A stretch of DNA of 14,561 bases from JALXCG01 sp026991065 [NCBI: Gemmatimonadota bacterium]. Its GTDB lineage: Bacteria > GCA-2686955. Shown piece after piece: positions 1 through 13,959 of this stretch. The DNA lies in contig JALXCG010000613.1 of NCBI GenBank assembly GCA_026991065.1, positions 1-14,561 of the forward strand. The letters run 5' to 3'. The stretch's first letter is position 1. Every line of letters starts with the position of its first letter. A program made the position numbers and the translations under genes. Below the pieces are notes generated by a model. The model saw only the letters and a list, made by a program, of their open reading frames with translations. It was not told the origin of the DNA and did no database searches.

Positions 1-1740
1 GCGAGCATCGCCGACACCCATCTTCCCTGCCTCTATTTCGTGTTTTTCCGGCGCTTGACGGAGACCTACGCACGCAACCTCGGCGAGCGACTGGGGCGTT
101 CGCTGCTCACGGCCGAGGAGCGGGCGCGAGCAGAGGCGATCCTGGATGAGCGTACCCAGGGCTGGCCGGAGGAGTTGCTGCGCGACCGGGAATTGTATCT
201 GAGCGGCATCGCCTTCCATCACGCGGGCGTCAACGTGCTGCTGAAGGCTCTGGTCGAGGAACTCTACGAGGCGCACCTGGTCAAGGTTCTGTATTGTACT
301 TCCACTTTCGCTCTCGGCATCAACATGCCGGTAAAGACGGTGATCTTCGACGGCATTCAGAAGTTCGATGGTCAGCGCATGCAGCCGCTTACGGTGCAGC
401 AATTCATGCAGAAGGCCGGGCGCGCCGGCAGACGCGGCATGGACGAGGTTGGCTACGTGGTGGTCAACCAGGAGTTCGACGACTTCGAACGCAATGCCCG
501 TTGCTTTGGCCGTTACGAGCAGGGGCGCTATGAGTCGGTCAACTCCTCCTTCAATCTCTCTTTCAATTCCATCGTCAATCTGCTGAGCGCCTACCAGATG
601 ATGGAAATCCAGGACATCGTCAACAAATCCTATCGAAATTTCCATCACCGCAAGATTCTGGACCAATTGAGCGCGGACATCGATGCCGTTCGCGACGAAT
701 TGGCGGCCCTGTTGGGAAGGGCGGCGCTTGATGACGAGGATGTGCCGGATTCGAGCGCGGCGATTGTGGGGGAGGCCATCCCCCTGTCCGGCGTGGACGA
801 ATCCGAGGTTTTGCGGCGACGAGAGAGTGCAATTTTCAAGCGAATCGAGGAGCGCATTGCAGGCCGACACGAATGGCTTGGGCGCTCCCCGCGCTACGCC
901 CAGATGCTGGATGCGTGTAGCAACCCCGATCAGCTGCTCCGGTTGATTGCTGATGAACTCACCGAGACCCCGCCGCATCGCGCAGGCCGTGTGCGGCGCT
1001 TGCGCCGCGCGGTAAAGACCGACATTCAGGAACTGCGCGGGATTCGTGACGCTCACAGTGTTCGCGTGCATGGCGGCCACGCACCGGAGTCCGTAGCTGG
1101 ACAGGCGACGCTGCTGCGCAAACGCTTGGCCACTCTGGAGAGAAAACGGCGGCGAGAAGAGCGCCGGCTGTACCAGAATCTGCTGGAGAAGGTGCATTTC
1201 CTGCGTGAAATCGAATACATCGGTCCCGACAACGATGTGCGGGCCGGCGGCGAGATCCTCAAGAACATCCACATCGAAGAGGTTTTTGTGACCGAATTGA
1301 TTCTCGCCGATGTATTCAGCGGACTTGAAGATGGACTTCTCTATGGCCTGATGGCGGCGATCTGCGCGGATTTCCCCCGGCGCGCCGCCCTGCGTGCCCA
1401 GATCCCTCGCCCGGTCCGTGATCTCGCCAAACGCGTGATGAAGATTCGGCGCTCCTACATTGTGACCGAGGCGGAACGCTACAACGGTGTCCGCACTTCG
1501 TTCTCTCCGGAGATTCTCTACCTGGCGTCGCTCTGGGAGGAGGGGCACACGCTGATGGAGATCATGCTCTTGATCGACACCAATTCGGACATCAGCGGAG
1601 ACCTGGTTTCAGCCCTGCGGCGGGCCAAGGACCTGGGGAAGCAGCTCAAAGACGTGTATCGTGGCGATGCCGCGATCATGGAGCAGCTCGGCCGGGTGAT
1701 TCGCAAGGTCAGCCGCGACGAAGTCGAAGTGCTGGATTGA
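1..1740 (+). CDS. Ski2-like superfamily 2 helicase, C-terminal part (5' end outside window)
   Basis: The frame is open from base 1, so this is the last 579 residues of a larger protein; the DEAD-box half with Walker A lies outside the window. The visible part starts at helicase motif IV (LPCLYFVFFRR, residues 8-17) and continues with FHHAG (72-76), motif V STFALGINMP (101-110) and motif VI QKAGRAGRRG (137-146). This order and wording are typical of the Ski2/Mtr4 branch of SF2 helicases, which unwind RNA or DNA using ATP. About 400 further residues follow, largely helical and charged (a basic, arginine-rich stretch around 320-395), consistent with the C-terminal winged-helix, helical-bundle and arch-like regions of Ski2 proteins, though I cannot delimit them. 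It converges on the zinc-array gene and overlaps its 3' end by 32 bp. Family call is firm; substrate is unknown. Confidence 0.93.
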   Translation, partial: ASIADTHLPCLYFVFFRRLTETYARNLGERLGRSLLTAEERARAEAILDERTQGWPEELLRDRELYLSGIAFHHAGVNVLLKALVEELYEAHLVKVLYCTSTFALGINMPVKTVIFDGIQKFDGQRMQPLTVQQFMQKAGRAGRRGMDEVGYVVVNQEFDDFERNARCFGRYEQGRYESVNSSFNLSFNSIVNLLSAYQMMEIQDIVNKSYRNFHHRKILDQLSADIDAVRDELAALLGRAALDDEDVPDSSAAIVGEAIPLSGVDESEVLRRRESAIFKRIEERIAGRHEWLGRSPRYAQMLDACSNPDQLLRLIADELTETPPHRAGRVRRLRRAVKTDIQELRGIRDAHSVRVHGGHAPESVAGQATLLRKRLATLERKRRREERRLYQNLLEKVHFLREIEYIGPDNDVRAGGEILKNIHIEEVFVTELILADVFSGLEDGLLYGLMAAICADFPRRAALRAQIPRPVRDLAKRVMKIRRSYIVTEAERYNGVRTSFSPEILYLASLWEEGHTLMEIMLLIDTNSDISGDLVSALRRAKDLGKQLKDVYRGDAAIMEQLGRVIRKVSRDEVEVLD

Positions 1741-3796
1741 GCGGTCGACGACGGATCAACCGACCCTCGGCGTCGAAGACCAGGATCTCTTTCGGTGCCG
1801 TCATGGTGACCAGGAAGCTCCGTTTCCGCAATGCCACGAGACGCCACTTCTTGATGCGGCGAAGGCTGTCCGGAAGCTCTTTCAGGTTGAGTTTGCTTAT
1901 TGCAGCAGCGTCAACCGACGCGCTGCGAGCGAGCCGCTGGCAAATGGTGCAGAGCATGTTCGGAGAGATGCAGCGGTTGCAATAGAGTTCGCCGCAGTTC
2001 CCGCAGCGCAGAGCATGCGGCTGGCACAGCGTGCTCCCGCAGGGGATGCAGTGCTCCGTGTGGTCGTCGCAAACCGCTCCGTTGCAGGTTCCGCAGCGCC
2101 CGGAGTGATCCTTGCAGACCCACTTGTGGCAGATTGCACAACGCACGCCGTGGCGCGCGCAGATGGTGCTCCCGCAACGGTCGCACTTGCCGGCGCACTC
2201 GTCACACAGAGGTCGGCTGCAGACTGAACAGGTGGATATGTGCTGCTGGCAGCGCAGAGATCCACATGCGGCGCATTGCGCCCCGTGCTCCCGACAGGTA
2301 ACCGCGCTGCAGGACTCGCAGATCAGCGAATGAGATAAGCAGACTTCTGCGTTGCAGTGCTCGCACCGCCCCAGGCACTGGGGGCAGTGGACCCGGCCGC
2401 AGACTGAACACTCGCCCGCCGAGCTGGCGCAGAGCGTCTTTTGGCAACGGGCGCACTCCAGGGAGCAGGCGTCACAAACCGCCCCCCCACAAACTGAGCA
2501 GGTGGCCCGGTGGTTGGCGCAGAGAGGGGTCTCACAGCGGATGCAATGGCCGCCGCAGGTGGTGCAGGAATTGCGTTCGCAACGGCCACACCGCAAAGAA
2601 TGCTCCGCGCAAACTGCACGCTGGCAGTCGTCACAGGTCTGGGCGCACTGGCCGCAAGCCGTGGCGCCACAGCGGGCGCACTCGTTGGCTCCGCACACAA
2701 CACAAGTCAAGAGCCCGCATGACGCACAGATTCTGACGCAATCCGCGCAGAGGATGTGCCCCCCGGAGCAGAGTTCGAGGGAGTGCCCGGTGGGTTTGTG
2801 GCAGCAGGCACAGAGACCGTGCTCCATGCCCCCCTGGTAGAGATCCACGTGGACCGTGTGCTCGGCGTGTAGTCCATCACGCTCCAGGACAATGTGCACT
2901 GCGGCAACCGGGGTTTCCACCTCTTCACAGGCGACCAGGCGAATGACCACGCGCTGGCGGTGGTTTTCCACTTCCTCGGCCAGCTTGGCGGCATACTCGT
3001 CATCCACCTGTTCAGTGGCACTGCGCCAGCGCGCGGGATCGCCTTTCGGGACCTCGGCCAGACGCTCCATGTAGTAGCTTTTCAACCTCACAATGGTGCG
3101 ATACAGGCGCTCGTGCGTCTCGTCCGCCAGCTCAGCCGCCCGGTCTCGCGCTATGTGCCGAGCCAGTCGCAACGCGGATTGGAATTTCTGTTCCAACTCC
3201 TCGGGCGTTGCCCTGCGCCGCTGAAAGAGGCGCATCCCCTCTGCAAAGGTGACGGCAAGATCCTGGAGAGAAGCGCGGTCAGCCTCGTCAACCGCGATGC
3301 GAATCAATTGATCCACTCGCTCGTCGGAGAGATAGTTAAGCCGCAGATAGAAGATGTGGTGACGGCGAAGGACGCGCTGAACGCGGAGTTCCCGAATGCT
3401 GCTTTGTCCGGAGTCCAGTTGCGCCGCAAGGCGCTTCTTGTAGAAACGGTGGCGCACAGGTAGTCGCACGCGCAACGCATGCCCGCGGTCACGCATCAAC
3501 TTGAGCACCGTTTCCAGCACGAAACTGCCGGGGGCCACCGGGTCGATGTTGGGGTCGGAGCAGGGAGATCCCGAGAAGGCCAGGGCGAGGCGGTCCTTGC
3601 CGAAGACGGAGCGCAGATTCTCCGGCAATTCCACCTGGGTGTGTTCCCGGCCACGGCGGACTGCGGCTCCCTGCCAGCGAAAAAACGCCTCTACGAACTC
3701 TCGCAGCTCCCGCAGGCGTGAGCTGTTCCCGGGAGCATCCGAAGCCATGGAGGAGAGCGGCAAGACAGCGTTTTCGGTTTTGCGGGGCTCCTTCAT
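1709..3796 (-). CDS. Zinc-array protein: about 17 tandem 15-residue CxxC/CxxH units behind a helicase-associated N-terminal half
   Basis: A 695-aa protein I cannot assign to a named family. Residues about 26-330 are alpha/beta and cysteine-poor, starting with a block around 29-75 (FVEAFFRWQGA, later LPENL) that recalls sequence found C-terminal to the motor in some RapA/HepA-type SNF2 proteins; this is from memory. Residues 329-619 are extremely Cys-rich. From C373 to C598 units recur exactly every 15 residues with the pattern C-x2-C-x4-C-x2-[CH]-x3; one more unit begins at C357 and irregular CxxC pairs flank the array. The unit at C448 has Ser (459) as fourth ligand. A short basic, beta-rich tail (about 640-695) follows. 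I chose the ATG at 3796, 7 bp after the SNF2 stop; the frame extends to 3961 but that part overlaps the helicase. An ATG at 3748 lacks a ribosome-binding site. Likely a protein- or nucleic-acid-binding partner of the SNF2 helicase. Confidence 0.88.
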   Translation of the reverse strand: MKEPRKTENAVLPLSSMASDAPGNSSRLRELREFVEAFFRWQGAAVRRGREHTQVELPENLRSVFGKDRLALAFSGSPCSDPNIDPVAPGSFVLETVLKLMRDRGHALRVRLPVRHRFYKKRLAAQLDSGQSSIRELRVQRVLRRHHIFYLRLNYLSDERVDQLIRIAVDEADRASLQDLAVTFAEGMRLFQRRRATPEELEQKFQSALRLARHIARDRAAELADETHERLYRTIVRLKSYYMERLAEVPKGDPARWRSATEQVDDEYAAKLAEEVENHRQRVVIRLVACEEVETPVAAVHIVLERDGLHAEHTVHVDLYQGGMEHGLCACCHKPTGHSLELCSGGHILCADCVRICASCGLLTCVVCGANECARCGATACGQCAQTCDDCQRAVCAEHSLRCGRCERNSCTTCGGHCIRCETPLCANHRATCSVCGGAVCDACSLECARCQKTLCASSAGECSVCGRVHCPQCLGRCEHCNAEVCLSHSLICESCSAVTCREHGAQCAACGSLRCQQHISTCSVCSRPLCDECAGKCDRCGSTICARHGVRCAICHKWVCKDHSGRCGTCNGAVCDDHTEHCIPCGSTLCQPHALRCGNCGELYCNRCISPNMLCTICQRLARSASVDAAAISKLNLKELPDSLRRIKKWRLVALRKRSFLVTMTAPKEILVFDAEGRLIRRRPLNPALRLRRG
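1961..2680 (-). repeat. 45-bp-period coding repeat array (zinc units)
   Basis: This is the DNA underlying sixteen exactly spaced 15-residue zinc units (C373 to about C609 of the zinc-array protein). Conservation is mainly at the protein level, but some nucleotide identity survives: the + strand text gcagactgaaca recurs with its core at 2221 and 2401, and a near copy (aaactgagca) lies at 2491. The separations are 180 and 90 bp, both multiples of 45, so the copies sit in register with the protein repeat. This points to expansion by internal duplication. Confidence 0.8.
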
Positions 3797-3803
3797 GGTG
3801 GAC

Positions 3804-5744
3804 TCAGGCTTCCAGCAGTTGGTCGAGAATCTGATCGGTCTCTCGGATGTGGCGCATGCGGTGACGCGCATGGTCCAGGCGCTCGGCAAGCTCCTCGAAA
3901 CCCTTGTCGAGTGTCTCCTCATCGGCGGCTGTAAGAAACAGCTCGCGGATGATCTGCTCAAAGGAGCGTTCCTCTCCCATCTCTCCGAGGATCAGGTCGA
4001 GTTCACCGATGACCAGCTCAAACATTCGGATCTTGTGTGCCAGAATGTCGAGGATGCGTGCCTCGATCGATCCTTCCAGGGAGAGGCTGATCGCAATCAC
4101 CGGATGCTCTTGTCCCAACCGGTGCAAACGGCCGATGCGCTGCTCGACGCGCATGGGATTCCACGGCAAGTCGAAATTGATGAGTTGGTGGCAGAACTGC
4201 AGATTCAGCCCCTCTCCACCAGATTGGGTGGAGATCATCACCCGGGCCTCGTCACGAAAACGGGCCAGGGCCGCGCTTCGAGCTGTGAGTGTCGAGAGGC
4301 CGCCGTGGAATGTCACAACGGTTTCACCGCGTGCCTCCAGCAACTCCACGAGGCTCGCCATCGTTTCCAGAAAGTCGGTATAGATCAGCACCTTGCCGGG
4401 AAAGCGGTCGAGCAGCTTGTAGACCGCCCGTACCTTGCTGGTTTCCTCGGGCAGCGATTCCGCGGCTGCGGCCAAAGCCTGCAACCGTGTGGCGCTGGGG
4501 CCAACCAGATCGGGACGGCGGGCCATGGCGGCGAGTGTTTTGGCCAGAGAACGGGGGGATGAAGTCACTTCCCGCTGGAGCGTGATCAAGGTCAGGAGCC
4601 GCGCCGGCTTGGCCTGGCCGGCAAAGAGTTCGTCCTGAATATAGGCGGTTATGTCGTCGTAGAGCGCTCGCTCGGCGCTGCTCATCGGCAAGTGGTAGAT
4701 CGCCGCGCGGCGGGGGGGCAGCTTGATGCCGGTGCTGCTGCGCCGATTGCGGATCATCACATCGGCCAGTACCCGGCGAAGTTCATCGGCTCGCGCCGGA
4801 AGCCGAGGGTCCACCTTGGAGATGTGGGTCTTGCGGAAACGCCGCACGGTACCCAGAATCCCGGGCTTGAGGATGGTGAGAAGAGAGTAAAGCTCGGTCA
4901 GGTCGTTGTGTACCGGGGTCGCGGTCAGAAGCAAGACATACTTCTTGCGGATGCGATTGACAAAACGGAAGCGTTTGGTTGCGCGGTTCTTGAGCTTGTG
5001 CGCTTCGTCAACAATAAGAAGGTCATAGCGCTGCCGAAGAATCACTTCTGCATTGCGGGCGGATTGCGCAGTGGCCAGGGACGCAAGCACCCGATCGTGG
5101 CTCCAGTCGGGTGGGTTCTTGCCAAGTAGAAAGTCCTCGCCGAACTTCTCTCGCATCTCTTCGCGCCACTGTCCCACTACCGCTGCCGGCGTGAGGATGA
5201 GAACTCGCCGGGCGAGGCCGCGGAGCAGCAACTCTTTCATGATGAGGCCGGCCTCGACCGTTTTGCCGAGGCCCACTTCGTCGGCCAGAAGAGCCTGGCC
5301 ACGCATCCGCTTCAGAGCGTCCTGCGCGGTTCGCACCTGGTGCTCGAAGTGCAGGATCTCCACTTCGTCCAGCGCCAGAAGGCGGTCAAAGCCCGGCGTC
5401 ATATCGTGCTGAATCGCCTCGACATGCAGCCGGAATTCCTCTGCCTCCTGCGCAATCTGCCCATGAAGGACCTCTTGCGATGCGGGGTGCAGCGCCACCG
5501 TCACTTCCGGTATCTGGATCCCCTCCTGCTGAAAAAACGCCCGGTGCTGCCCATGACCGGAAAAACTCCGCCCACAGCGGAAGCACTCGCTGCGGGTCTC
5601 GGGATCCAGCCAGCCGCAGCGCGGACAGCGTCGCCCCAGCAATGGTGGTGCTTGGCTACCCGGTGTTTGCTCCGCCGCTGGTTTTGGCGCGGGAATGTCC
5701 AGCCATTCAAAGCGCTCAGCGCCACCGTCTGTTCGTGAGATCAT
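3804..5744 (-). CDS. SNF2/RapA-like DEAH-box helicase with N-terminal zinc ribbon
   Basis: A 646-aa Swi2/Snf2-family ATPase (double-stranded nucleic acid translocase). An N-terminal C4 zinc ribbon has CPRCG and CFRCG pairs (C40/C43 and C54/C57). The RecA-like motor follows: Walker A DEVGLGKT (155-162), DEAH box IVDEAH (244-249), motif III LLTATPVHND (272-281), motif V STQSGGEGLNLQ (505-516) and motif VI QRIGRLHRLGQ (535-545). All core motifs are intact, so it should be active. The C-terminus ends soon after the motor, unlike full-length RapA (about 970 aa), and the next gene may supply the missing accessory part. I chose the ATG at 5744 because it overlaps the stop of the AAA+ gene as ATGA; the frame could extend to 5783 inside that gene. 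No strong ribosome-binding site is present, so translation is probably coupled. The exact target (DNA-protein complex, RNA polymerase or foreign DNA) is unknown. Confidence 0.95.
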   Translation of the reverse strand: MISRTDGGAERFEWLDIPAPKPAAEQTPGSQAPPLLGRRCPRCGWLDPETRSECFRCGRSFSGHGQHRAFFQQEGIQIPEVTVALHPASQEVLHGQIAQEAEEFRLHVEAIQHDMTPGFDRLLALDEVEILHFEHQVRTAQDALKRMRGQALLADEVGLGKTVEAGLIMKELLLRGLARRVLILTPAAVVGQWREEMREKFGEDFLLGKNPPDWSHDRVLASLATAQSARNAEVILRQRYDLLIVDEAHKLKNRATKRFRFVNRIRKKYVLLLTATPVHNDLTELYSLLTILKPGILGTVRRFRKTHISKVDPRLPARADELRRVLADVMIRNRRSSTGIKLPPRRAAIYHLPMSSAERALYDDITAYIQDELFAGQAKPARLLTLITLQREVTSSPRSLAKTLAAMARRPDLVGPSATRLQALAAAAESLPEETSKVRAVYKLLDRFPGKVLIYTDFLETMASLVELLEARGETVVTFHGGLSTLTARSAALARFRDEARVMISTQSGGEGLNLQFCHQLINFDLPWNPMRVEQRIGRLHRLGQEHPVIAISLSLEGSIEARILDILAHKIRMFELVIGELDLILGEMGEERSFEQIIRELFLTAADEETLDKGFEELAERLDHARHRMRHIRETDQILDQLLEA

Positions 5745-7255
5745 GTTGCGTCCGAAGCGCGGCGGGTGCGCCCATGGGCCCATTGCCGCAGAGCCGACAC
5801 TTCATGGTCCATGGTTCGCGAGAGAGGGGCGGTTGCGGTGATGTTCTGCAGAATGTCATCGGCGCGAAGGGGCCGGCGCGCTTGAAAAGCGTCGAACAGA
5901 CCCCCAATCACCGACTCTTCGATCTCCGCGCCACTAAAACCGTCACTGGCTTCGACCAATGCGTCGAGCCCGATCCTGTCTGGATTGCGCTTGCGCGCGC
6001 GCAGGTGGATGCGAAAAATCTCGCGGCGTTCGGCGGCGTTGGGAAGATCGACAAAGAACGTCTCGTCGAAGCGCCCTTTGCGCAGCAACTCCGGCGGCAA
6101 GCGCCGCACATCGTTGGCGGTGGCCACTACAAAGACGGCTTGCTCTTTCTCCTGCAGCCAAGTCATGAAGGTGCCGAAGACACGAGCCGCTGTGCCGGCA
6201 TCGGAGTAGTTCGACGATGCGGTTCCAGCGAACCCCTTTTCGATTTCATCGATCCACAGGACAACCGGCGCGATCGATTCCACCGTGCGGATTGCGAGAC
6301 GCATGTTTTCTTCGCTCGACCCCACCGTTCCGCTGAAAACCCGCCCCACATCCAAACGCAGAAGGGGTTGCCCCCACTGCGCCGCAATTCCTTTGGCTGT
6401 CAGCGACTTGCCACACCCCTGAACGCCGACGATCAGAACCCCGCGGGGAGCGGGAAGGCCAAACTCCCGGGCTTCATCAGAGAGCGCATCGCCACGCTTG
6501 CGCAACCACACCTTCAGTGCGCTGAGTCCGCCCACTTGGTCGAGTGTTGCGTTGGGTTCGTAGTACTCCAGAATCCCTGACTTGCGAACGATCTGCCGCT
6601 TCTCCTCGATTACTGCGGCGACCGCCGATTCAGCGATCTTGCCGCTGCGCACGACTGCTTTGGCAAGCGCGTTCTCGAATTCAACCAGGGTCAGCCCCTG
6701 CGCGGCACGAATCAGGCGGGTCCGGAGCGATGCCGGGAGCCGGGTGTCAATATCGCCGCGCCGCTCCAGCCCTCCGAGCAAGCGCTCCAGCGCTCCTTCC
6801 AGGATCTGCCGATCCGGCAGTTCGAGATCGAGAACCTCAATCTCTTTGGCCAATTCGGTGGGCAACTTCAAGGTCGGGGACAAAAAGATCACGGATACCG
6901 GTCGGTGGTGCAATACGGCGGCCAAATCACGCAGCTTGCGGACGATGCGCGGATCATTCAGATAGGGATGGAAGTCGAGCAGGACGAAGATTCGCTCCGC
7001 CCCTTCGTAGCTGATCTCATCCAGCACCACGTGTGGATCGCTTGTATCCGGGCCACTGCGTGCTGCTGCCACCGGCGGCTTGCGGCCGTCACGGCGAAGC
7101 CCTTCAGTGACGGTCCACAACCAGATCTCCTTCTCGACACTCCGCCCAACTTGCCGAATCACGTCGAGCGCACGCTTCTCTTCCCAGGTCACCAGGTAGA
7201 GCAGTGGGTAACGGGCGCGGACCGAGTCTGCCAGAGTCTCTTCTATTGAACTCAT
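5741..7255 (-). CDS. Ycf46-family AAA+ ATPase
   Basis: A 504-aa protein with the N-terminal signature of Ycf46-type ATPases: residues 11-26 ([16 protein letters not shown]) begin a degenerate first domain running to about residue 200. The active AAA+ module follows: Walker [14 protein letters not shown] (277-289), the family-typical [11 protein letters not shown] (297-307) and VGSSEENMR (311-319), Walker [15 protein letters not shown] (331-344), sensor 1 ATAND (378-382), arginine-finger region [12 protein letters not shown] (390-401) and sensor 2 region GFSGAEIEE (439-447). Such proteins assemble as hexamers that remodel other proteins. The founding members are plastid and cyanobacterial, and roles elsewhere are largely unassigned. 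The ATG at 7255 overlaps the upstream stop as ATGA, and its own stop overlaps the SNF2 start the same way, so the three are translationally coupled. It probably remodels or loads a partner encoded beside it; this is inference. Confidence 0.95.
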
Positions 7256-8085
7256 TCCGCGCCATCTCCGCGCCGCATCTGAAGGCGCCGGGGTTGATCC
7301 CAGACTCCCGAGTTTCTGAAGAGTTGTTCCATATACGCATGGTAACGATCTGCATCTCGCGGGATCAGGCGTTTTTCGAACGGGACGGCCAGTGGCGTGT
7401 AGTCGTATTTCCAGATGCCCGTCTCCGCTACATCAATTCTCTCCGGCAGCTGCTTGAGACATGCGTTGATTTGCTGAAACGAAAGGGCGGGGCAAGCCAT
7501 GCGGTCACGCAGGCGATTCAGGAAGGCCTGAATCCGGTGTGTGTCGAGCATCCAGGTTTCAGGGGAGAGCGGGCGGCTCAATTCGAACCAGTGGGGTCGA
7601 GCCGACTCGGGGGGACCCGGCCGATAGCGGAGTCGAATGTGGTAGTCGTGACAGCCAAGGTGGTCGGGAAACTCGCCGCCGACCGCACACCGATCCGCGT
7701 CGTGGCCCTGGTCAAGCACATGCTCAATGTGACAATCGAGAAAACTCTCGATCTCTTCCCCACTGGCCGGCCAGCCATTGAGATAGGCTTGCACTCCCGG
7801 CCACCCGGAAAGCCGGCGCCAGTTCTCGCGAAATAGGCGTAGATCTTTGGCTTGGTATATGTTGCGGTGAATGCAGGCACCTTGCTCATCAAGCAATCTC
7901 ACCGCACCGGGATGAAGTGCGTGACGAGCAACAATTTCGTCCATATCCGGGCGATCCAGACGCTGGAAATCCAGGACCAGGTTCCAACCGCGATCCACGG
8001 GAGTCCACTCTCCCCGCTCGTCATCCGCCCCGTCCCCACTCTCCGGGACAGGGCGCGACCCGAACCGGGGATCTTCGCTCGCCAT
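7252..8085 (-). CDS. Unrecognised 277-aa His/Cys-rich protein, first gene of the coupled ATPase cassette
   Basis: I do not recognise this protein. The first 25 residues are acidic and probably disordered; the rest looks like a compact alpha/beta fold with many Trp and Tyr. His and Cys cluster in the middle: C118, H119, H122, H128, C133, H142, C145, H146 and H149, which could bind zinc or another metal. There is no signal peptide, membrane segment or ATPase motif. The start at 8085 is preceded by GGAG at 8096-8093 with a 7-nt spacer, which favours ATG 8085 over the adjacent GTG 8088. The start overlaps the stop of a short upstream ORF (TGATG), and its stop overlaps the start of the AAA+ gene (ATGA). 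Invariant coupling would make it a dedicated partner or client of the Ycf46-like ATPase. The gene is well supported; its function is unknown. Confidence 0.85.
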   Translation of the reverse strand: MASEDPRFGSRPVPESGDGADDERGEWTPVDRGWNLVLDFQRLDRPDMDEIVARHALHPGAVRLLDEQGACIHRNIYQAKDLRLFRENWRRLSGWPGVQAYLNGWPASGEEIESFLDCHIEHVLDQGHDADRCAVGGEFPDHLGCHDYHIRLRYRPGPPESARPHWFELSRPLSPETWMLDTHRIQAFLNRLRDRMACPALSFQQINACLKQLPERIDVAETGIWKYDYTPLAVPFEKRLIPRDADRYHAYMEQLFRNSGVWDQPRRLQMRRGDGAE

Positions 8086-8210
8086 CACTCATCTCCGTTT
8101 TGTCCGCGCCGCTTGGCGAAGAGCACCCGCTCGTCGCTCAACATCCTCTCGAATGATTCGTGGGCCGGTCGAACCGGCGGAAATCCGGTGAACAGCCCAG
8201 GCCAGAGCAT
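8085..8210 (-). CDS. Probable short ORF (41 aa), coupled to the 277-aa gene
   Basis: A 41-codon frame starts at ATG 8210 (MLWPGLFTGFPP...) and ends with a charged tail (..KRRGQNGDE). Its stop overlaps the start of the next gene as TGATG, and codon third positions are mostly G or C like the neighbours, which favours real coding. The weak points are the lack of a clear ribosome-binding site at 8210 and an alternative GTG start at 8231; an internal ATG at 8144 has GAGAGG directly against it, which is too close. Composition is an apolar, proline-containing first half and a charged helical second half. It could be a small accessory protein or a leader that mainly serves coupling. I do not recognise it. 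Confidence 0.42.
   Translation of the reverse strand: MLWPGLFTGFPPVRPAHESFERMLSDERVLFAKRRGQNGDE
8086..8096 (-). promoter_or_regulatory. Ribosome-binding site deciding the start of the 277-aa gene
   Basis: GGAG (8096-8093) followed by 7 nt precedes ATG 8085. The neighbouring GTG at 8088 would have only a 4-nt spacer. The site lies inside the last codons of the short upstream ORF, as expected for coupled translation. Confidence 0.6.
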
Positions 8211-8278: not shown

Positions 8279-8872
8279 TCAGATCCGAATTGTCAGATCG
8301 AGGGTATTGCTCTGTTCCACCGCAGGCAGAACCACGCGGGCACGACCCCGACGATCGGTCTCCGCAGAGATCAGAGGCGTTGTGCTCTTGTGCTCGGAAA
8401 CGAGGATTGTGGCGTTCGCGAGAGCCCGCCCATGGCGCGCAACCCGGACCCGCAACACCGCACCATCCAGGGTAAGCAGGGCGTGGGTTTCCCTGCCAAG
8501 ATCCAGTTCAACCGAAGATTCCTGACTGGCGGGTGTGCCACTACGCAGTCCCGCAATTTGAGCCTGGGGCACGGGCGAGCCATCAGTCTCGACGAATGCC
8601 GGCGCCGGCAAACGGTGCATGACCAGAACGCGGGTTTGCGCGAGCGGGCGATGAGTTTTCGCGATCTGTTGCCACAACTCTTCGGGAAGAGTCTCCTTTT
8701 TTCCCGTCTCTTCTTCCGCGGTTGCCAAACGTGCGAAGAGAGCTTGGACCTCATTCCTGCAGAGTGGGCATTCATCCAGATGCGGGCCCACGCAGTCCCC
8801 GTCACTCGGGCCCTCATGGACATAGCGGACCAGCACCTCGGGCGCGGGGCAGATGCGGGAAGTCTGGCTCAT
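8279..8872 (-). CDS. Soluble zinc anti-sigma-like protein with C-terminal beta domain (pair 2)
   Basis: A 197-aa protein with an N-terminal zinc anti-sigma (ZAS, zf-HC2-like) motif H31-x3-C35-x2-C38 (PHLDECPLC), with a further Cys at 27. A short acidic helical segment (about 40-75) follows, then a C-terminal region (about 120-197) of alternating hydrophobic residues, probably an Ig-like or carboxypeptidase-regulatory-like beta sandwich. There is no transmembrane segment, so unlike classical membrane anti-sigmas it should stay in the cytoplasm. The ATG at 8872 has a strong GGAGGT (8884-8879) with a 6-nt spacer, and it overlaps the upstream sigma stop as ATGA; the frame extends to 9184 but that part lies inside the sigma gene. 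It presumably binds the sigma factor encoded just upstream and may be a CHAT protease target. Confidence 0.85.
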   Translation of the reverse strand: MSQTSRICPAPEVLVRYVHEGPSDGDCVGPHLDECPLCRNEVQALFARLATAEEETGKKETLPEELWQQIAKTHRPLAQTRVLVMHRLPAPAFVETDGSPVPQAQIAGLRSGTPASQESSVELDLGRETHALLTLDGAVLRVRVARHGRALANATILVSEHKSTTPLISAETDRRGRARVVLPAVEQSNTLDLTIRI

Positions 8873-9615
8873 GAACGTACCTCCAATGCCGCAGTGGACC
8901 GCCGGGATGCGGGGAGTGGATCTGCTGATGTTGCAGAGGCGAGGAGACGCTGATACTTGCGTCGCAGCAATGCGAGGGCGCGGTGGCGCCGCCAGGTGAC
9001 CGTGTTGGTGGGCAAGCGCAACGCCTCGCCGATCTGTCGATCGGGAGCACCTTCCCAGAAATAGCGCCGCACAATCTCCCGGTCGCGCGGGTCCGGAAGC
9101 GTTGCGCAGAGGCGGCGCAGGCGGCGGGCCATCAGCTGCTGGCGATAGAGTTGATCCGGTTGCTCCAGGCGATGGGAGCGCCACAGGCCAAGCTGGTGGG
9201 GAAGTGAATGGCTGGGCGCCAAACCAGCGGCCAGAGTGGTGTCATCGTCGTTCGATCGGGCTGCGTCCATCGATACGCGCCGGCGCACATCCCGGCACTG
9301 CCGGCTCAGGCGGCGGTTTTCGCTGATTCGGACTCGATCGGCGATGGCAAAGAGGTAACTCTTCAAAGAGGTTTCGCCTCGATAGCGAGCCAGCGCCCCC
9401 TGCGCGCAGTGAAGAAACACCTTCTGCAACATGTCGTCGATCGCGGAATCATCTCCGAGACGATACCCTTGCGCAAGCCATGCGCGGAGGGCCGGAGCAT
9501 AAGTGGCATAAAGCTGCTCCCAAGCGCTTCTCTCCGGTGGGTCGTCTGCGCAGCGCGCTGCCATCTCTATCTCGCTTGCGCGATGCTTTGGATCCGCGGC
9601 GGGCCGGGACTGCAT
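8869..9615 (-). CDS. ECF-type RNA polymerase sigma factor (pair 2)
   Basis: A 248-aa sigma-70 family protein. Region 2 lies at about 32-105 (WEQLYATYAPALRAWL; later DDMLQKVFLHC and LKSYLFAIADR, the usual region 2.1-2.4 layout). Region 4 lies at about 160-222 (LPDPRDREIVRRYFWEG, then the helix-turn-helix IGEALRLPTNTVTWRRHRA). The linker between them, about 105-160, is longer than the typical ECF linker. At about 250 aa the protein exceeds the usual 160-200 aa. ATG 9615 has AGAGGAG (9631-9625) with a 9-nt spacer; the frame opens at a TTG at 9714 overlapping the CHAT stop, but that has no such site. The gene follows the CHAT gene by 95 bp and overlaps the anti-sigma-like gene by 4 bp (ATGA). It presumably directs transcription of a stress or response regulon that may include this locus. 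Confidence 0.88.
   Translation of the reverse strand: MQSRPAADPKHRASEIEMAARCADDPPERSAWEQLYATYAPALRAWLAQGYRLGDDSAIDDMLQKVFLHCAQGALARYRGETSLKSYLFAIADRVRISENRRLSRQCRDVRRRVSMDAARSNDDDTTLAAGLAPSHSLPHQLGLWRSHRLEQPDQLYRQQLMARRLRRLCATLPDPRDREIVRRYFWEGAPDRQIGEALRLPTNTVTWRRHRALALLRRKYQRLLASATSADPLPASRRSTAALEVRS
8873..8884 (-). promoter_or_regulatory. Strong Shine-Dalgarno fixing the start of anti-sigma-like gene 2
   Basis: GGAGGT at 8884-8879 with a 6-nt spacer to ATG 8872. It rules out the much longer in-frame extension to 9184 as the used start. Confidence 0.75.
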
Positions 9616-9710
9616 TCTCGACAACTCCTCTGTTCTCAGCTGAACAGCGCACCATTGTGGCGTGCATCTGCCATGGAGTCGTCGCCTCGCGGAAAACAGA
9701 TACACCGCCT

Positions 9711-12512
9711 TCAATAAAGCCGCAAGTCACCCCGCCCAAAAACAGAAAAGCCTGCCCAGTAAAAGGGATGAGGGTGGGTTTCGCTGACTGCCAGTTGTGC
9801 TTCGCGGAGTGCCGCGGCTACCGGTTGATGGCGCAGCAGGGCCCCGTAGAAGAGGTCCATCAACTCCGCCGAGACGGTGTCATCTACCCGCCAGAGGCTG
9901 GCGACCACGGAGCGGGCACCGGCAAAGAAGAACCCTCGCACCAGGCCGATCAACTCATCGCCCGGACGCACCCGGGAACGACCGGTTTCACAGCCCGAAA
10001 GAACAACCAGGGGGGCCATCCCCGGCATTTGATAGAGATCGACGACCCGCAGCGGGCCATCCGCCAGGCGCAGGGAGGAGCCCATGGGGGAGGCGGCAGT
10101 GAAATCCCCGTGCGAAGCAACATGCAGCAGTTGCGCCCGCGGCGCTTCCCGGTGGAACACTTCGAGCGTCGCGTCGGAGCCGGAAAAGAACCGGCCGCCG
10201 ACGAGCCGACCAGCCACCACCCGTCCCTCATGCGCAATCTGAGGCGCTGCGCTGTCCGCGACGGCCAGAACCAAACTCCGATTCAACTCCAGTGGAGGAA
10301 CGGGCACCGCAAGAGTATTCAGGACCGCGGCACTTGGTACCACGCTGACCTCCAGTTTGCGGCAGAGCGGCGCTCCGCGCAGCCGCAGCGCGGCCGCCGG
10401 AAGCGCATGGAGCAGGCCGTGTGGGGCGATCACCAGACGCTCAAGCCCGGGCGGGAAGCGCTCCACGAAAGGCCCGAGGAGCAGCTCCCCGAGTGAATCC
10501 AGAATCTCCGTCGCGGCTTCCTGGAAGATGGTTCCGTGACGCCGGCGGGCAGCGGGTTCGAGCAGCGAGAAGTCGACGATCTCGGCGAACCACTCATCGG
10601 TGATCAGGGCGGCCAGCGCCCGGGCATCACCGCATTCGCGGCAGAACACCTCTCCATCCGCCGTGACCAAGGCACCGATCGCGAGATCGTCCAGCAGGTA
10701 GAAATCCAGCAGCGCCTCTCCCGCCCGCAGCGACCCCGCAACCGCGTTGGAGTCGAGAGAGATTGTGCCATCCAGCCCGAGCAGATCGGTTCGACCCAAG
10801 CTGATCAGCTCTTGCCGCAGTGCATCAAACTCTTTGGCCAGGACCTGCGATCTTCGGGTCGCCGCCAGCATCGGCGTGTCCACCTGCTGTGGATCCACCT
10901 CCTTCTGTTCCTCTTCACCCCCATCTCCGGCATCCAGTTCAGCAGCGGCGGCGGCAGCCGAGATCTGTGCGGCATAGTCGGCGCGCACCCTGGTGAATCG
11001 TTCCCACAGGGGTAGAACTGCGGGCGGGAGATTCGCACCGACGCAATCGGTCACTCCGCGCGATCGCAGAAGATCCGCCAGCGCCGCTGATTTCGCTGCC
11101 TCCAGTGCCCGAAGGATGGCGGTCGCATCATGAGCCTGCCAATGCAGACGCAGGGCGTTTTCAAACGCCTCCTCCTTGTCCGCGACAAAAGCGGTTTTGG
11201 CGAGGTCTCCGGCGAGCGCGGCGCGGGCCTCTTCGATGGAGCGAACACAAGCATCCGCCTCTGCCCGCGCGGCCTCCAGGTCTCCCGCGCGCGCAAGCAA
11301 GACAGCAGCCCGATGGCGGGCGCGGTAGGAGAGCCAGTTCAGGTCGTGCGCTTCACCGTGGGCAATCGCGCGGCGGTAGATTGCCAGGGATTCCGTGGCC
11401 CGCGACTCTTCCAGAGCCCGCGCCTCGACCAGCATCGCGTAGCCTACATAGGGCGCATGGCGGTGCAGGATCATCCGCGCGTCCGCTGCCCGCTGCCGGG
11501 CCGCCGCATGGTTCTTCTCCTGAAGATCCAGGACCGCCTCTTCGATCCTTACCAGACCGACATAGACCCGCGCATTCTGCGCCTGAAAAGCCTGTTCCGC
11601 CTCCTTGAGCGCCTGCCGCGCCTTCAGCAGCTCGCCGTTGCGCTGCAGCGCACGCGCCAAGTTGATCTGCACGATGGCGCGATCGAAATCCATTCCCTGA
11701 GTGGCGAAGAACTCCGCGGCGCAACTCGCTACCTCCAGCGCGTCGTTGTTGCGATTGAGATCAAGAAGCACTTCGGAAAGATTGGTTTCGCAGAATGCCG
11801 CGTAGGTGCGAAGCCCCTGGCGCCGAAACAGTTCACGCGCAGCTTCGCCGGCGCTCACCGCCTCGCGCAATTCCCCGCGCATCTGGTGGAGATTGGCCCG
11901 GTTCAGATCGCAGATGGCACTCCGCTGCGGCAGGTCGAACTCCTCAAATACTTTTTTGGCCCGCTCATAGCGCGCCAGGGCGCGGCCATAGAAGCCCTGG
12001 TAGGTAAGTGCGTTCGCGCAGGACACATCCGCGCGGGCCGCACGAATCCGCGCCCCCCCGCGTGAGCAGATCTCGCGAGCCCGGTCGAATGCCTCCTCGA
12101 CGCCGGATGCGTCGAGATTGTGATGGTGAGCATTGGCCAGCGTGATGTCCGCCCAGGCACACGCAAGAGCATCTCCTTGCTGCTCAAAGATCCTCCGCGC
12201 ATCCTCCGCGAGCAGTCGCGCACGGGTCGCTTCTCCGAGTACGCTCAGGGCCTCAGCCCGGGCAAGCGCAGCACGCGCTTCGAGTGCGCTCATGCCACTC
12301 TTGAAGCGCTTCAGGCACGCCACCACCTCCCGGCAGCGCCCCTGTGCAAGCAACACCAGTCCACGCACCAGAAGCAATTCTGCCGCCGGCTCAGCTCCGG
12401 TGACTGTCACCCCCAGGGCATTGGCCGCCTCGTAGCGAGCCAGCAATGCCTCAGGATCTCGTTCCAGGGCCAGATCTGAGTTGTCAGTAAAGGAAAGCGG
12501 AGAAAACTCCAA
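9711..12512 (-). CDS. TPR-CHAT caspase-like cysteine protease
   Basis: A 933-aa cytoplasmic protein. Residues about 40-440 are continuous helical repeats of TPR type (recurring A/L-rich helix pairs such as ALARYERAKKVF and LNRANLHQMRGE). A middle region ends in an Ala-run and acidic linker (about 515-550). The CHAT domain occupies about 640-933, with both catalytic residues present: His801 in LLHVASHG and Cys841 in VVLSGCETG. The typical flanking blocks LVIAPHGLLHALP, GDELIGLVRGFFFAG and SLWRVDD are also present. CHAT proteins are clan CD proteases (separase, HetF and Craspase relatives). The start is a TTG at 12512; upstream in the same frame lies only the stop of the anti-sigma-like gene at 12530-12528, and no ATG follows for many residues, so TTG is the best choice. 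It sits between two sigma/anti-sigma-like pairs, which makes their anti-sigma-like proteins the obvious candidate substrates. That link is inference. Confidence 0.95.
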   Translation of the reverse strand: MEFSPLSFTDNSDLALERDPEALLARYEAANALGVTVTGAEPAAELLLVRGLVLLAQGRCREVVACLKRFKSGMSALEARAALARAEALSVLGEATRARLLAEDARRIFEQQGDALACAWADITLANAHHHNLDASGVEEAFDRAREICSRGGARIRAARADVSCANALTYQGFYGRALARYERAKKVFEEFDLPQRSAICDLNRANLHQMRGELREAVSAGEAARELFRRQGLRTYAAFCETNLSEVLLDLNRNNDALEVASCAAEFFATQGMDFDRAIVQINLARALQRNGELLKARQALKEAEQAFQAQNARVYVGLVRIEEAVLDLQEKNHAAARQRAADARMILHRHAPYVGYAMLVEARALEESRATESLAIYRRAIAHGEAHDLNWLSYRARHRAAVLLARAGDLEAARAEADACVRSIEEARAALAGDLAKTAFVADKEEAFENALRLHWQAHDATAILRALEAAKSAALADLLRSRGVTDCVGANLPPAVLPLWERFTRVRADYAAQISAAAAAAELDAGDGGEEEQKEVDPQQVDTPMLAATRRSQVLAKEFDALRQELISLGRTDLLGLDGTISLDSNAVAGSLRAGEALLDFYLLDDLAIGALVTADGEVFCRECGDARALAALITDEWFAEIVDFSLLEPAARRRHGTIFQEAATEILDSLGELLLGPFVERFPPGLERLVIAPHGLLHALPAAALRLRGAPLCRKLEVSVVPSAAVLNTLAVPVPPLELNRSLVLAVADSAAPQIAHEGRVVAGRLVGGRFFSGSDATLEVFHREAPRAQLLHVASHGDFTAASPMGSSLRLADGPLRVVDLYQMPGMAPLVVLSGCETGRSRVRPGDELIGLVRGFFFAGARSVVASLWRVDDTVSAELMDLFYGALLRHQPVAAALREAQLAVSETHPHPFYWAGFSVFGRGDLRLY

Positions 12513-12527
12513 GGCGTGGGCCTGCTC

Positions 12528-13136
12528 TCATTCCAGATTCTTTTCGCGCGTCACCTGGAGTCCGGCAAGGATGATTTCACGGCACCCATCGAGAAAAAAG
12601 CGCAGCTCATAGGAGCCCGCGGGAAGCCCTCGAACCCGAAAACGACCACGCGCATCGATGGCTTCGGTGGCAACGGGCTGTGTGTCGCAAGTCAAGAATA
12701 CCTCAGTGGGAGCCGGCCGTATCGTGGAAGCCACAATCAAGCGCCCCCGGATCTCTCCGCCGGAACCTGCATCACCATGAATTTGAACCGTGGCATCATA
12801 GCCATCCCCCTCATAGACGCGCCGGTCATCTCCGCTCCTCGTGCCGCGAACGCCTCGGGTTGCATTCGCCGGCACCGCTTCCTCTGTCCGCCAGCGGCTC
12901 AACTCCCGCCATACTCGCTTCACAAGAGGATCCACATCGATGAGCGCGGTCTCGGCAGCATCAGCCTCTGCCACGTCCGCTTCGGCCGCACCGAGCAAAG
13001 CATCAGCGCCGGCCAGAATCGCCAACTGGCGCTCACATTGGTCACATCCGGCCCGCAAATGCTCCCGGTCGGCAGCGCAAACTCCAGTAGGGTCGTCCAG
13101 CCAGTGCAGCAGTGCTGCAAGATCCGGGTGCTTCAA
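12528..13136 (-). CDS. Soluble zinc anti-sigma-like protein with carboxypeptidase-regulatory-like domain (pair 1)
   Basis: A 202-aa protein. The N-terminus carries a ZAS-like zinc motif, H26-x4-C31-x2-C34, one residue longer between His and the first Cys than the usual HxxxCxxC, with C20 nearby. An Ala/Asp/Glu-rich helical stretch (about 40-88) and a polar linker follow. Residues about 126-197 resemble a carboxypeptidase-regulatory-like/Cna-B-type beta sandwich (GGEIRGRLIVA, then DARGRFRVRGLPAGSYELRF). There is no membrane segment. I chose a TTG start at 13136 because AAGGAG (13149-13144) lies 7 nt before it; the frame continues to a GTG at 13277 overlapping the sigma stop, but the extra 47 residues look non-coding-like. 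Only 15 bp separate it from the CHAT start. It likely sequesters the sigma factor encoded upstream and may be cleaved by the CHAT protease. Confidence 0.83.
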   Translation of the reverse strand: MKHPDLAALLHWLDDPTGVCAADREHLRAGCDQCERQLAILAGADALLGAAEADVAEADAAETALIDVDPLVKRVWRELSRWRTEEAVPANATRGVRGTRSGDDRRVYEGDGYDATVQIHGDAGSGGEIRGRLIVASTIRPAPTEVFLTCDTQPVATEAIDARGRFRVRGLPAGSYELRFFLDGCREIILAGLQVTREKNLE

Positions 13137-13149
13137 ACTAGGTCTCCTT
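13137..13149 (-). promoter_or_regulatory. Strong Shine-Dalgarno supporting a TTG start
   Basis: AAGGAG at 13149-13144 with a 7-nt spacer to TTG 13136. It argues for a 202-aa product and a 137-nt untranslated interval after the sigma stop, instead of the GTG at 13277. Confidence 0.65.
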
Positions 13150-13273
13150 GTTTTCTCGTCTCTCCGCAGCGTCACCTTCGGGCGCAACCGGGTGAGAGGA
13201 ATTCGGTCTGGGAGTCGCGGTCTGAATGCGCTTGGATACGAGGAGTTGCGAATAGAACACTGCCGGTGCCCCT

Positions 13274-13810
13274 TCACATCAGCCGTGCTGCCAAACGCGC
13301 CAAAGAGCGGGCAATGGTGGGACCGATCGACCCTCTGGGGATGGCCGCCTTGGCGGCGATCTCGTCGTACGAAAGCCCCTCTTGATAACGCATGCGCAGG
13401 AGCATTGCACCCCGCCTTCCCGCTTTCGTAGCGGGAAGCAGTTCCAATATCTCGTCGAAACTGGGCAGGGCCGCCGGTATCTGTGTTGCAAAAGGTTGTG
13501 CACGCGCCTCCAGAGAGAGCGCGCTCCGGCCATCCGCATCGCGATAACGACGCCGCAACTGGTCCAATGCCCGCCGCCGAGCTACCGTGAGCACATAGGC
13601 GCGAAGAGCACCCGCGGTCCGGATGCGCAAGAAGAGCCGTGGGTCCGCGAGTTGCAGAAAGGTCTCTTGAAACGCATCTTCCGCATCGTGTGGATCATTC
13701 AGAACGCGCAGAATCACGCGCCGTACCGGCCCGGCATATTTACGAATCAGAGCCTCCAGGGCTCGCGGATCACGCCGCCGACAGCCGGCCAGGAGGCGCT
13801 CGTCATCCAT
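13274..13810 (-). CDS. ECF-type RNA polymerase sigma factor (pair 1)
   Basis: A 178-aa sigma-70 family ECF protein of normal length. Region 2 spans about 5-90, with the core-binding and promoter-melting helices around VLNDPHDAEDAFQETFLQL (37-55) and ALRAYVLTVARRRALDQLRRR (68-88). Region 4 spans about 118-178, with the helix-turn-helix YQEGLSYDEIAAKAAIPRGSI (142-162). ATG 13810 has GGGAGG (13823-13818) with a 7-nt spacer; the frame could extend to ATG 13858 but without a comparable site. It is the first gene of the leftward gene run and is followed by the first anti-sigma-like gene, then the CHAT protease. ECF sigmas often control their own operon, so the 247 bp upstream is the place to look for its promoter, though I could not pick a convincing -35/-10 pair. 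Confidence 0.92.
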   Translation of the reverse strand: MDDERLLAGCRRRDPRALEALIRKYAGPVRRVILRVLNDPHDAEDAFQETFLQLADPRLFLRIRTAGALRAYVLTVARRRALDQLRRRYRDADGRSALSLEARAQPFATQIPAALPSFDEILELLPATKAGRRGAMLLRMRYQEGLSYDEIAAKAAIPRGSIGPTIARSLARLAARLM

Positions 13811-13823
13811 GACTCGACCTCCC
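13811..13823 (-). promoter_or_regulatory. Shine-Dalgarno of sigma gene 1
   Basis: GGGAGG at 13823-13818 with a 7-nt spacer to ATG 13810; this decides against the in-frame ATG at 13858. Confidence 0.7.
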
Positions 13824-13959
13824 TCGCCAGCTCTGGGACACACGTCATCCGGAGCCATCTTCAGCCTCGATCCAAGCGCTACAAACCTCTCGCCAAGAGC
13901 CGGTCGCGCCTTGTTTTTGCGTCGCCTCGCACTCGTCCCTGCTCCGATCTCTGTGTTGC

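Follow-up and report, generated by a model that had tools for sequence, protein, structure and literature searches.

Release of extracytoplasmic function (ECF) sigma factors by proteases is already known as a kind of regulation. In the Craspase/CASP system of type III-E CRISPR (Cas7-11, Csx29, Csx30 and CASP-sigma), the protease Csx29 cleaves Csx30, an inhibitor of the ECF sigma factor CASP-sigma, and cleavage is thought to free the sigma factor, while regulated proteolysis of the RseA/DegS type frees ECF sigma factors from class I anti-sigmas (PMC10028731 for both). In the CalpL/CalpT/CalpS system of type III CRISPR, the cut anti-sigma fragment still holds the sigma factor and is thought then to be degraded (PMC11417357). 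Here we describe a stretch of 14,561 nucleotides, hereafter the window, which is contig JALXCG010000613.1 (C613 in our numbering) of the 4.1-Mb draft genome of the Gemmatimonadota bacterium JALXCG01 sp026991065 (G000), whose phylum is represented by two genomes in our set. The window carries a five-gene operon in which a TPR-CHAT protease is flanked by two pairs of an ECF sigma factor and a soluble anti-sigma-like protein (AS). We think it somewhat probable that this operon is a soluble relative of the Craspase switch outside CRISPR, with CHAT cutting the linker of the anti-sigma and thereby freeing the sigma factor.

The gene order claimed in the original prediction (sigma1, AS1, TPR-CHAT, sigma2 and AS2, all on the minus strand) was borne out by open reading frame (ORF) calls. 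The gene for sigma1 (194 aa) spans 13274-13858, so that the end coordinate first assigned to the operon, 13810, falls 48 nt inside it; AS1 (249 aa) is encoded at 12528-13277, the caspase-like TPR-CHAT protease (933 aa) at 9711-12512, sigma2 (281 aa from a TTG; the true start may be later) at 8869-9714, and AS2 (197 aa) at 8279-8872. Three junctions, sigma1/AS1, CHAT/sigma2 and sigma2/AS2, are 4-nt overlaps, and the gap between AS1 and CHAT is 15 nt. For AS2 we took the ATG at 8872 as the start, giving a 4-nt overlap with the sigma2 stop; the longest AS2 ORF (8279-9184) begins inside sigma2. The gene content of the operon, the families of its products, their coupling and conserved linkage, the catalytic residues and the linker motif described below are established by direct observation. 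A comparison of the region upstream of sigma1 with the gap after AS2 for a shared promoter motif yielded a single 10-nt near-match only.

The mechanism that we infer from these features, comprising sigma inhibition, trigger, cleavage, cleavage site and regulons, would run as follows. At rest, each ECF sigma factor would be bound by the soluble zinc anti-sigma with which it is paired. The CHAT protease would be activated by a signal that acts on the TPR region and would cut the flexible linker that joins the sigma-binding zinc domain of the anti-sigma to its immunoglobulin (Ig)-like C-terminal domain, most likely after a conserved arginine (Arg110 in AS2; Arg144 or Arg147 in AS1). The detached sigma-binding fragment would then release the sigma factor or be degraded, and the sigma factor would begin transcription. 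By analogy, the logic would be that of Csx29 and Csx30, but with another kind of inhibitor and a trigger other than CRISPR.

Linkage of an ECF sigma factor, a soluble zinc anti-sigma and a TPR-CHAT protease is conserved in many lineages. ORFs were called with an in-house script, and the profile hidden Markov models (HMMs) for sigma, CHAT, AS and subtilase were built from sequences of this study, so that the linkage counts depend on these models. For a family-level set, CHAT was searched in 290 genomes sampled across families and found in 80 of them; 120 CHAT neighbourhoods, most of them high-ranking in a list ordered by score, together with the window made up 121 loci with 132 CHAT ORFs (fragments included; the weakest sigma matches reach E 1e-3). 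An ECF sigma ORF in any orientation lies within 2.5 kb of 52 of these 132 ORFs. Counted by distance from CHAT, sigma ORF midpoints number 48 within the first 2 kb (430 kb of sequence), 5 between 2 and 3 kb (188 kb) and 5 beyond 3 kb (572 kb), and the difference between the nearest and the farthest class argues that the proximity is not due to chance. A second, named set consisted of the best 80 of 507 relatives by similarity to the window CHAT and leans toward the window's kind; 51 of the 80 are Acidobacteriota, the others including Chloroflexota, Rubrobacter, Planctomycetota and Syntrophaceae. In this set a same-strand ECF sigma gene stands immediately upstream of CHAT in 51 of the 63 loci with more than 1.5 kb upstream, 60 of the 80 have an AS-family gene no more than 1.5 kb from CHAT, and both are present in 41 of the 58 loci having both flanks. 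The position of AS varies, with 23 of 49 cluster members upstream of CHAT and 26 downstream.

Two kinds of module are distinguishable among the 121 loci, a soluble, window-like kind and a membrane kind with a transmembrane anti-sigma and a CHAT that has a signal-peptide-like start (for example L021). In the membrane version (L021, L024, L066, L082 and L084), the anti-sigma-like protein has a transmembrane or hydrophobic segment and CHAT is likely exported, in which case it could act as a site-1 protease; the membrane anti-sigma-like proteins of L021 and L024 have a TPR-like outer part. A subtilase gene (Peptidase_S8) is a frequent partner of the soluble modules (e.g., L014:2785-4377 and L245:2-1564): 58 of the 80 named loci have one no more than 3 kb away from CHAT, compared to 9 of 116 family-level loci, and in the sister genome of the window genome (Gemmatimonadetes bacterium isolate ARS67, G001, whose loci L169 and L014 are one and the same) it overlaps the sigma gene; no subtilase gene was found in the window. 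Upstream of many Acidobacteriota sigma-CHAT operons (L165-L198) there are oligopeptide-type ABC transporter genes, and a gene for a solute-binding protein of family 5 occurs in 30 loci (upstream in 29). In Terriglobia the operon is accompanied by a subtilase gene and, at some of the loci, by an importer of the oligopeptide type.

The protease itself matches the CHAT profile PF12770 at 181.8 bits against a cut-off of 24. Its catalytic dyad, which the original prediction had described as intact, is present (His801, codon 10110-10112; Cys841, codon 9990-9992; both on the minus strand) and is invariant across all 44 aligned CHAT homologues, indicating that catalysis is under selection. The AlphaFold2 (AF2) model of the window TPR-CHAT (predicted local distance difference test, pLDDT, 87.8; predicted template modelling score, pTM, 0.83) has the Craspase TPR-CHAT 7y83_D as its best structural match (Z 35.1, root-mean-square deviation (rmsd) 7.8 over 579), which supports the previously drawn analogy to Csx29, Csx30 and CASP-sigma, and a second Craspase chain, 8eey_B, scores comparably (Z 34.4, rmsd 4.6 over 491). 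Superposition of the protease region on separase (5fc2_B) gave Z 32.3 and an rmsd of 2.7 over 319 residues. The TPR half resembles the peptide receptors Rap and NprR (Z 25-30), but as this match reflects a common fold, peptide sensing is a lead only. In a tree of 200 CHAT domains, the window CHAT falls within an 86-member clade (support 0.979), of which 66 members are sigma-linked and some of the remainder begin near a contig end; this tree and the sigma tree below are single quick runs. A scan of genome contigs with the window CHAT alone as query recovered no relatives.

Two acidic residues, Glu762 and Asp878, are invariant in the alignment of 44 CHAT homologues and were considered as determinants of arginine specificity. 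Glu762 as the S1 acid proved non-discriminating, since the Craspase chains, which cut after other residues, carry a Glu at the same place. Asp878 as a separase-type arginine-binding Asp was also dropped; it is absent from the Craspase chains compared, but relative to human separase it appears to stand at the wrong position. The solved CHAT protein PDB 8rot_B (991 aa) matches the zinc anti-sigma profile weakly in its first 50 residues (E 0.008) and CHAT at its end (2.9e-5), and is a possible anti-sigma/CHAT fusion; a search of the open-licence literature by entry code found no paper on it.

The anti-sigma-like proteins carry zinc-ligand motifs, H73-x4-C78-x2-C81 in AS1 and H31-x3-C35-x2-C38 in AS2, and the N-terminal part of a profile of 37 AS proteins matched the domains of solved zinc anti-sigmas (3hug_B, which we take to be RslA, 1.6e-5; ChrR, 3.3e-4; RsiW, 7.9e-4), in agreement with the zinc anti-sigma-like nature that had been claimed for both. 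The C-terminal part of the same profile matched Ig-like domains (NOMO2, 2.5e-12). Scanned singly, AS1 and AS2 received no Pfam anti-sigma name, the anti-sigma match of AS2 alone lay below its cut-off (17.6 bits, cut-off 100), and individual members of the 37 matched zf-HC2 in 9 cases and CarboxypepD_reg in 19 (E<=0.1). The H-x3/4-C-x2-C motif together with the profile matches places the N-terminal region in the class I zinc anti-sigma (ZAS) domain, with single-protein scans staying below cut-offs, and by this domain AS1 and AS2 would be ZAS-type anti-sigmas that are predicted to inhibit their sigma factors. Both are soluble, as had been proposed: the most hydrophobic 19-residue stretch reaches 1.42 in AS1 and 0.68 in AS2, below the value of 1.75 that we chose as membrane-like. 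The AF2 model of AS1 (mean pLDDT 74.9) consists of helices at 53-132 and a sandwich at 151-242, joined by a linker in which pLDDT falls below 50 at 134-141 and 144-147; a fold search returned common Ig- and fibronectin type III-like folds only (best Z 8.4). AS1 is found by the HMM of the CHAT-linked AS family (E=3.9e-13), and AS2 has a relative in the sister genome (E=5.5e-17).

An alignment of the 37 AS proteins contains two invariant columns, Arg144 and Gly211 in AS1 numbering. The arginine lies in the linker in all 37, preceded at two residues' distance by Gly in 34, directly preceded by Val or Leu in 29 and directly followed by Ser, Thr, Gly or Ala in 32, and a G-x-R-small pattern occurs anywhere in the protein in 33 of the 37 compared to 13.5% of shuffled sequences. 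Among ten AS proteins outside this alignment, eight retain the arginine when aligned. The candidate CHAT cleavage site in AS1 is RGVR|GTRS (Arg144, codon 12846-12848, minus strand), although Arg147 (GTR|S), three residues on, is no worse a fit to the motif than Arg144 (GVR|G). In AS2 the motif is GLRS at 108-111, giving the candidate site AGLR|SGTP (Arg110, codon 8543-8545, minus strand), and the arginine is invariant in a four-sequence alignment as well as occupying the motif column of the 37. Both anti-sigmas therefore carry a candidate CHAT cleavage motif. An invariant arginine in a floppy linker ahead of a small residue resembles a protease site and could be one, but it could also be a docking site, in which case CHAT would control AS by binding, its TPR region docking on the AS linker or sandwich and pulling AS off the sigma factor. 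The conserved motif extends past the arginine (FDSFxQP...GVRS), as a docking peptide would, and TPR domains bind peptides, the window TPR resembling Rap and NprR; the invariance of the catalytic dyad speaks for selection on catalysis, and we regard control by docking as quite improbable.

A different arrangement would make CHAT the output of the system instead of its trigger, with the anti-sigmas sensing the signal through zinc or redox chemistry or through an Ig-domain ligand, and the freed sigma factor raising the level of CHAT, which would act on other proteins. ECF sigma factors often drive their own operon, and some zinc anti-sigmas, among them ChrR (one of the matches of the AS profile), can sense a signal directly; the frequent subtilase gene likewise suggests that the operon can hold other protease outputs. 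On the other hand, the zinc Cys columns are Cys in only 27 of the 37 AS proteins, yet the linker arginine is present in all of them, and locus L199 retains a CHAT next to an AS-like protein without the zinc domain, with no sigma detected there. That AS-like protein (L199:10477-10980) keeps the linker arginine and adjoins CHAT. We consider CHAT as output unlikely, and prefer CHAT as the protease that would act on the anti-sigmas.

Both sigma factors pass the cut-off of the ECF superfamily model TIGR02937 (42.9 bits), sigma1 with 67.5 bits and sigma2 with 71 bits; sigma1 also matches Sigma70_r2 at 47.4 bits, and other single Pfam sigma regions lie near their cut-offs (r4_2 of sigma1, 24.7 of 25.7; r2 of sigma2, 22 of 24). 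We reconstructed a tree of 115 sigma factors that included 20 comparison sigmas from three genomes and in which all named-set loci were labelled soluble by default. Both window sigmas fell in a 69-member CHAT-linked clade containing 0 of the 20 other sigmas (support 0.89) and made up of 68 of the 70 labelled soluble plus one membrane member. Within it, sigma1 belongs to a 62-member subclade (support 0.986), and sigma2 groups with its orthologue in the sister genome (E=2.4e-68) and with sigmas of L141, L147, L148 and L091 (support 0.762). Since the two sigmas occupy separate subclades and share 24% identity, the two pairs do not reflect a recent duplication. One protease in the window is thus accompanied by two different pairs of sigma and anti-sigma, whose sigmas belong to separate sub-lineages of the CHAT-linked group, and one trigger could therefore start two promoter programmes.

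We also performed the reciprocal search, in which a profile built from 13 CHAT-linked sigmas was run against 192 genomes. Seven places were recovered at E<=9e-46 (G103, G001, G000 twice, G137, G005 and G067) and all seven adjoin CHAT; three of them (G000 twice, the window, and G001, the sister) belong to the query profile, leaving four independent ones. Outside G000, 17 of the 18 places that came next were fetched (E 9e-34 to 1.6e-30; G040:C28 was left out), and CHAT was present in 0 of 17 within about 5 kb on each side, or less at contig ends. The eighth place, G000:C501 (4.1e-41), and G000:C485 (7.4e-31) are contigs of 5.6-5.7 kb from the window genome without a CHAT match; C485 holds a subtilase, a sigma and an AS gene, and C501 a sigma gene followed by the start of an AS-like frame.

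Several observations weigh against the proposed switch or narrow its reach. The window genome has sigma2/AS2-like genes without an adjoining CHAT on C485 and C501 (the sigma resemblance being judged by eye), which leads us to guess that one protease might serve more than two pairs. The reciprocal search holds one way, as the CHAT-linked sigmas of G041, G061 and G188 (L141, L132 and L148) lie outside the top places; 12 of the 63 named loci lack a sigma gene inside the 1.5-kb limit, of which L217 and L232 have one further upstream; and no sigma gene adjoins the CHATs of L119 and L126, which the tree places near that of the window. AS2 was missed by the AS-family HMM at E<1 and is the weaker member, so that the evidence for its assignment comes from the gene in the sister genome, its zinc ligands and its motif. 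As to the linker, the AS proteins of L132 and L145 (one genus) lack the arginine even though their CHAT retains the dyad, the residues preceding the arginine (FDSFxQP) are also conserved, so that it may serve folding or the binding of sigma or CHAT, and 34 of the 37 aligned sequences form one similarity cluster. Lastly, the P1-arginine-binding Asp of separase, which in the human sequence lies 8 residues after the motif Trp, presumably corresponds to Ala882, Asp878 being 4 residues after. The AS proteins of L132 and L145 have also lost the zinc motif.

Conservation of the neighbours, which the original prediction had named as a test, held for the three-gene module of sigma, AS and CHAT, by the named-set counts given above, and failed for the five-gene order. 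As a conserved unit this order was rejected: among the 121 and 80 loci none has two pairs around one CHAT, and the nearest is L084, of the membrane kind, where the order sigma-AS-CHAT-sigma-AS-CHAT amounts to two complete modules, one behind the other. In L194 another sigma gene and another CHAT gene follow downstream. Three loci were flagged for two AS matches: in L218 and L223 the extra match is a neighbouring ORF in another frame, and in L214 it overlaps the sigma gene, for which reason it was set aside as an ORF in the wrong frame. By comparison with L084, the window may derive from a tandem pair of modules in which one CHAT was lost. It is also conceivable that only sigma2 and AS2 belong to the window CHAT, sigma1 and AS1 being a separate unit upstream or the remnant of a module that lost its CHAT. 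The sister genome has the order subtilase, sigma2, AS2, CHAT, with a single sigma2-type pair and no sigma1 alongside, which fits this possibility, as do the low identity of the two sigmas and the existence of tandem whole modules. In the opposite direction, the main clade of CHAT-linked sigmas includes sigma1, the HMM of the CHAT-linked AS family recognises AS1 and not AS2, and the window genes overlap or sit 15 nt apart. We consider a separate sigma1 unit rather doubtful, and retain the reading in which both pairs would be controlled by the one protease.

Further downstream on the minus strand, the run at 1709-8088 looks like a defence-type cluster, in which no known system was recognised. 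Its first gene (7252-8088) encodes a protein without a recognised family and is followed by an AAA ATPase with an IetA-like match (5741-7255), an SNF2 helicase resembling BrxHI, DrmD and DpdE (3804-5783), and a Cys-rich protein without a family (1709-3961).

Taken more broadly, and tentatively, the module may represent a wide non-CRISPR family of caspase-controlled sigma switches, consisting of an ECF sigma factor, a soluble zinc/Ig anti-sigma, a TPR-CHAT protease and often a subtilase, in which an arginine-specific CHAT would cut a G-x-R linker, Craspase would be a relative captured by CRISPR, and the window would be a forked form whose protease releases both sigma factors and perhaps, in trans, other sigma2-like pairs encoded elsewhere in the genome; we rate this generalization as possible, short of probable. 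Open-licence literature, excluding the main ECF re-classification (PMC7826278), which may list CHAT neighbours, yielded no description of a soluble non-CRISPR TPR-CHAT module or of the double-pair form. The conserved arginine offers a test at close to single-residue level, and Rubrobacter taiwanensis and Rubrobacter marinus, whose modules (L202 and L243) have a single pair, are cultured hosts.

Compared to known systems, the window operon is not a member of type III-E CRISPR. No match to Cas7-11 was found among the window proteins scanned, 10 in each of two scans, and the 14.5-kb contig has no unassigned ORF of that size; a crude repeat scan of the same contig for a CRISPR array was empty. The window TPR-CHAT scores 28 bits against the Csx29 model (NF041237), whose cut-off is 300, and in profile comparison no entry named Csx30 was among the matches of the AS profile at E<=5. 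Among the 200 loci scanned, CRISPR-like repeats in L068, L171, L221 and L236 proved on inspection to be short-period repeats and not arrays. The likeness to CASP is a TPR-CHAT of the same fold beside an ECF sigma factor and, here, a predicted inhibitor; the difference is that the window has zinc-domain/Ig-sandwich anti-sigmas in the place of Csx30 and two pairs per protease. Craspases cut at the non-conserved sites A|S, L|D and M|K (PMC11106740), in contrast to the single conserved linker arginine that is the candidate site in window-type AS proteins. Separases cleave after arginine (PMC10317155) and share the fold of the protease region, but their P1-arginine Asp appears to be replaced in the window protein. 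CalpL/CalpT/CalpS likewise combines a protease, an anti-sigma and an ECF sigma factor, but CalpL is a Lon protease with a SAVED domain that is activated by cyclic oligoadenylate, whereas the window protease is a CHAT. The SAVED-CHAT/PCaspase system of Haliangium type III-B is a CHAT protease cascade with sigma-factor-related targets that is CRISPR-linked and requires a second caspase; it shares CHAT with the window, whose TPR-CHAT has no SAVED match in a Pfam scan. RseA/DegS-type anti-sigmas span the membrane, in contrast to the soluble AS1 and AS2. If the proposed mechanism is true, the sigma switch of Craspase would be one CRISPR-linked case of a wider design, in which a caspase/separase-like protease cuts a soluble anti-sigma.

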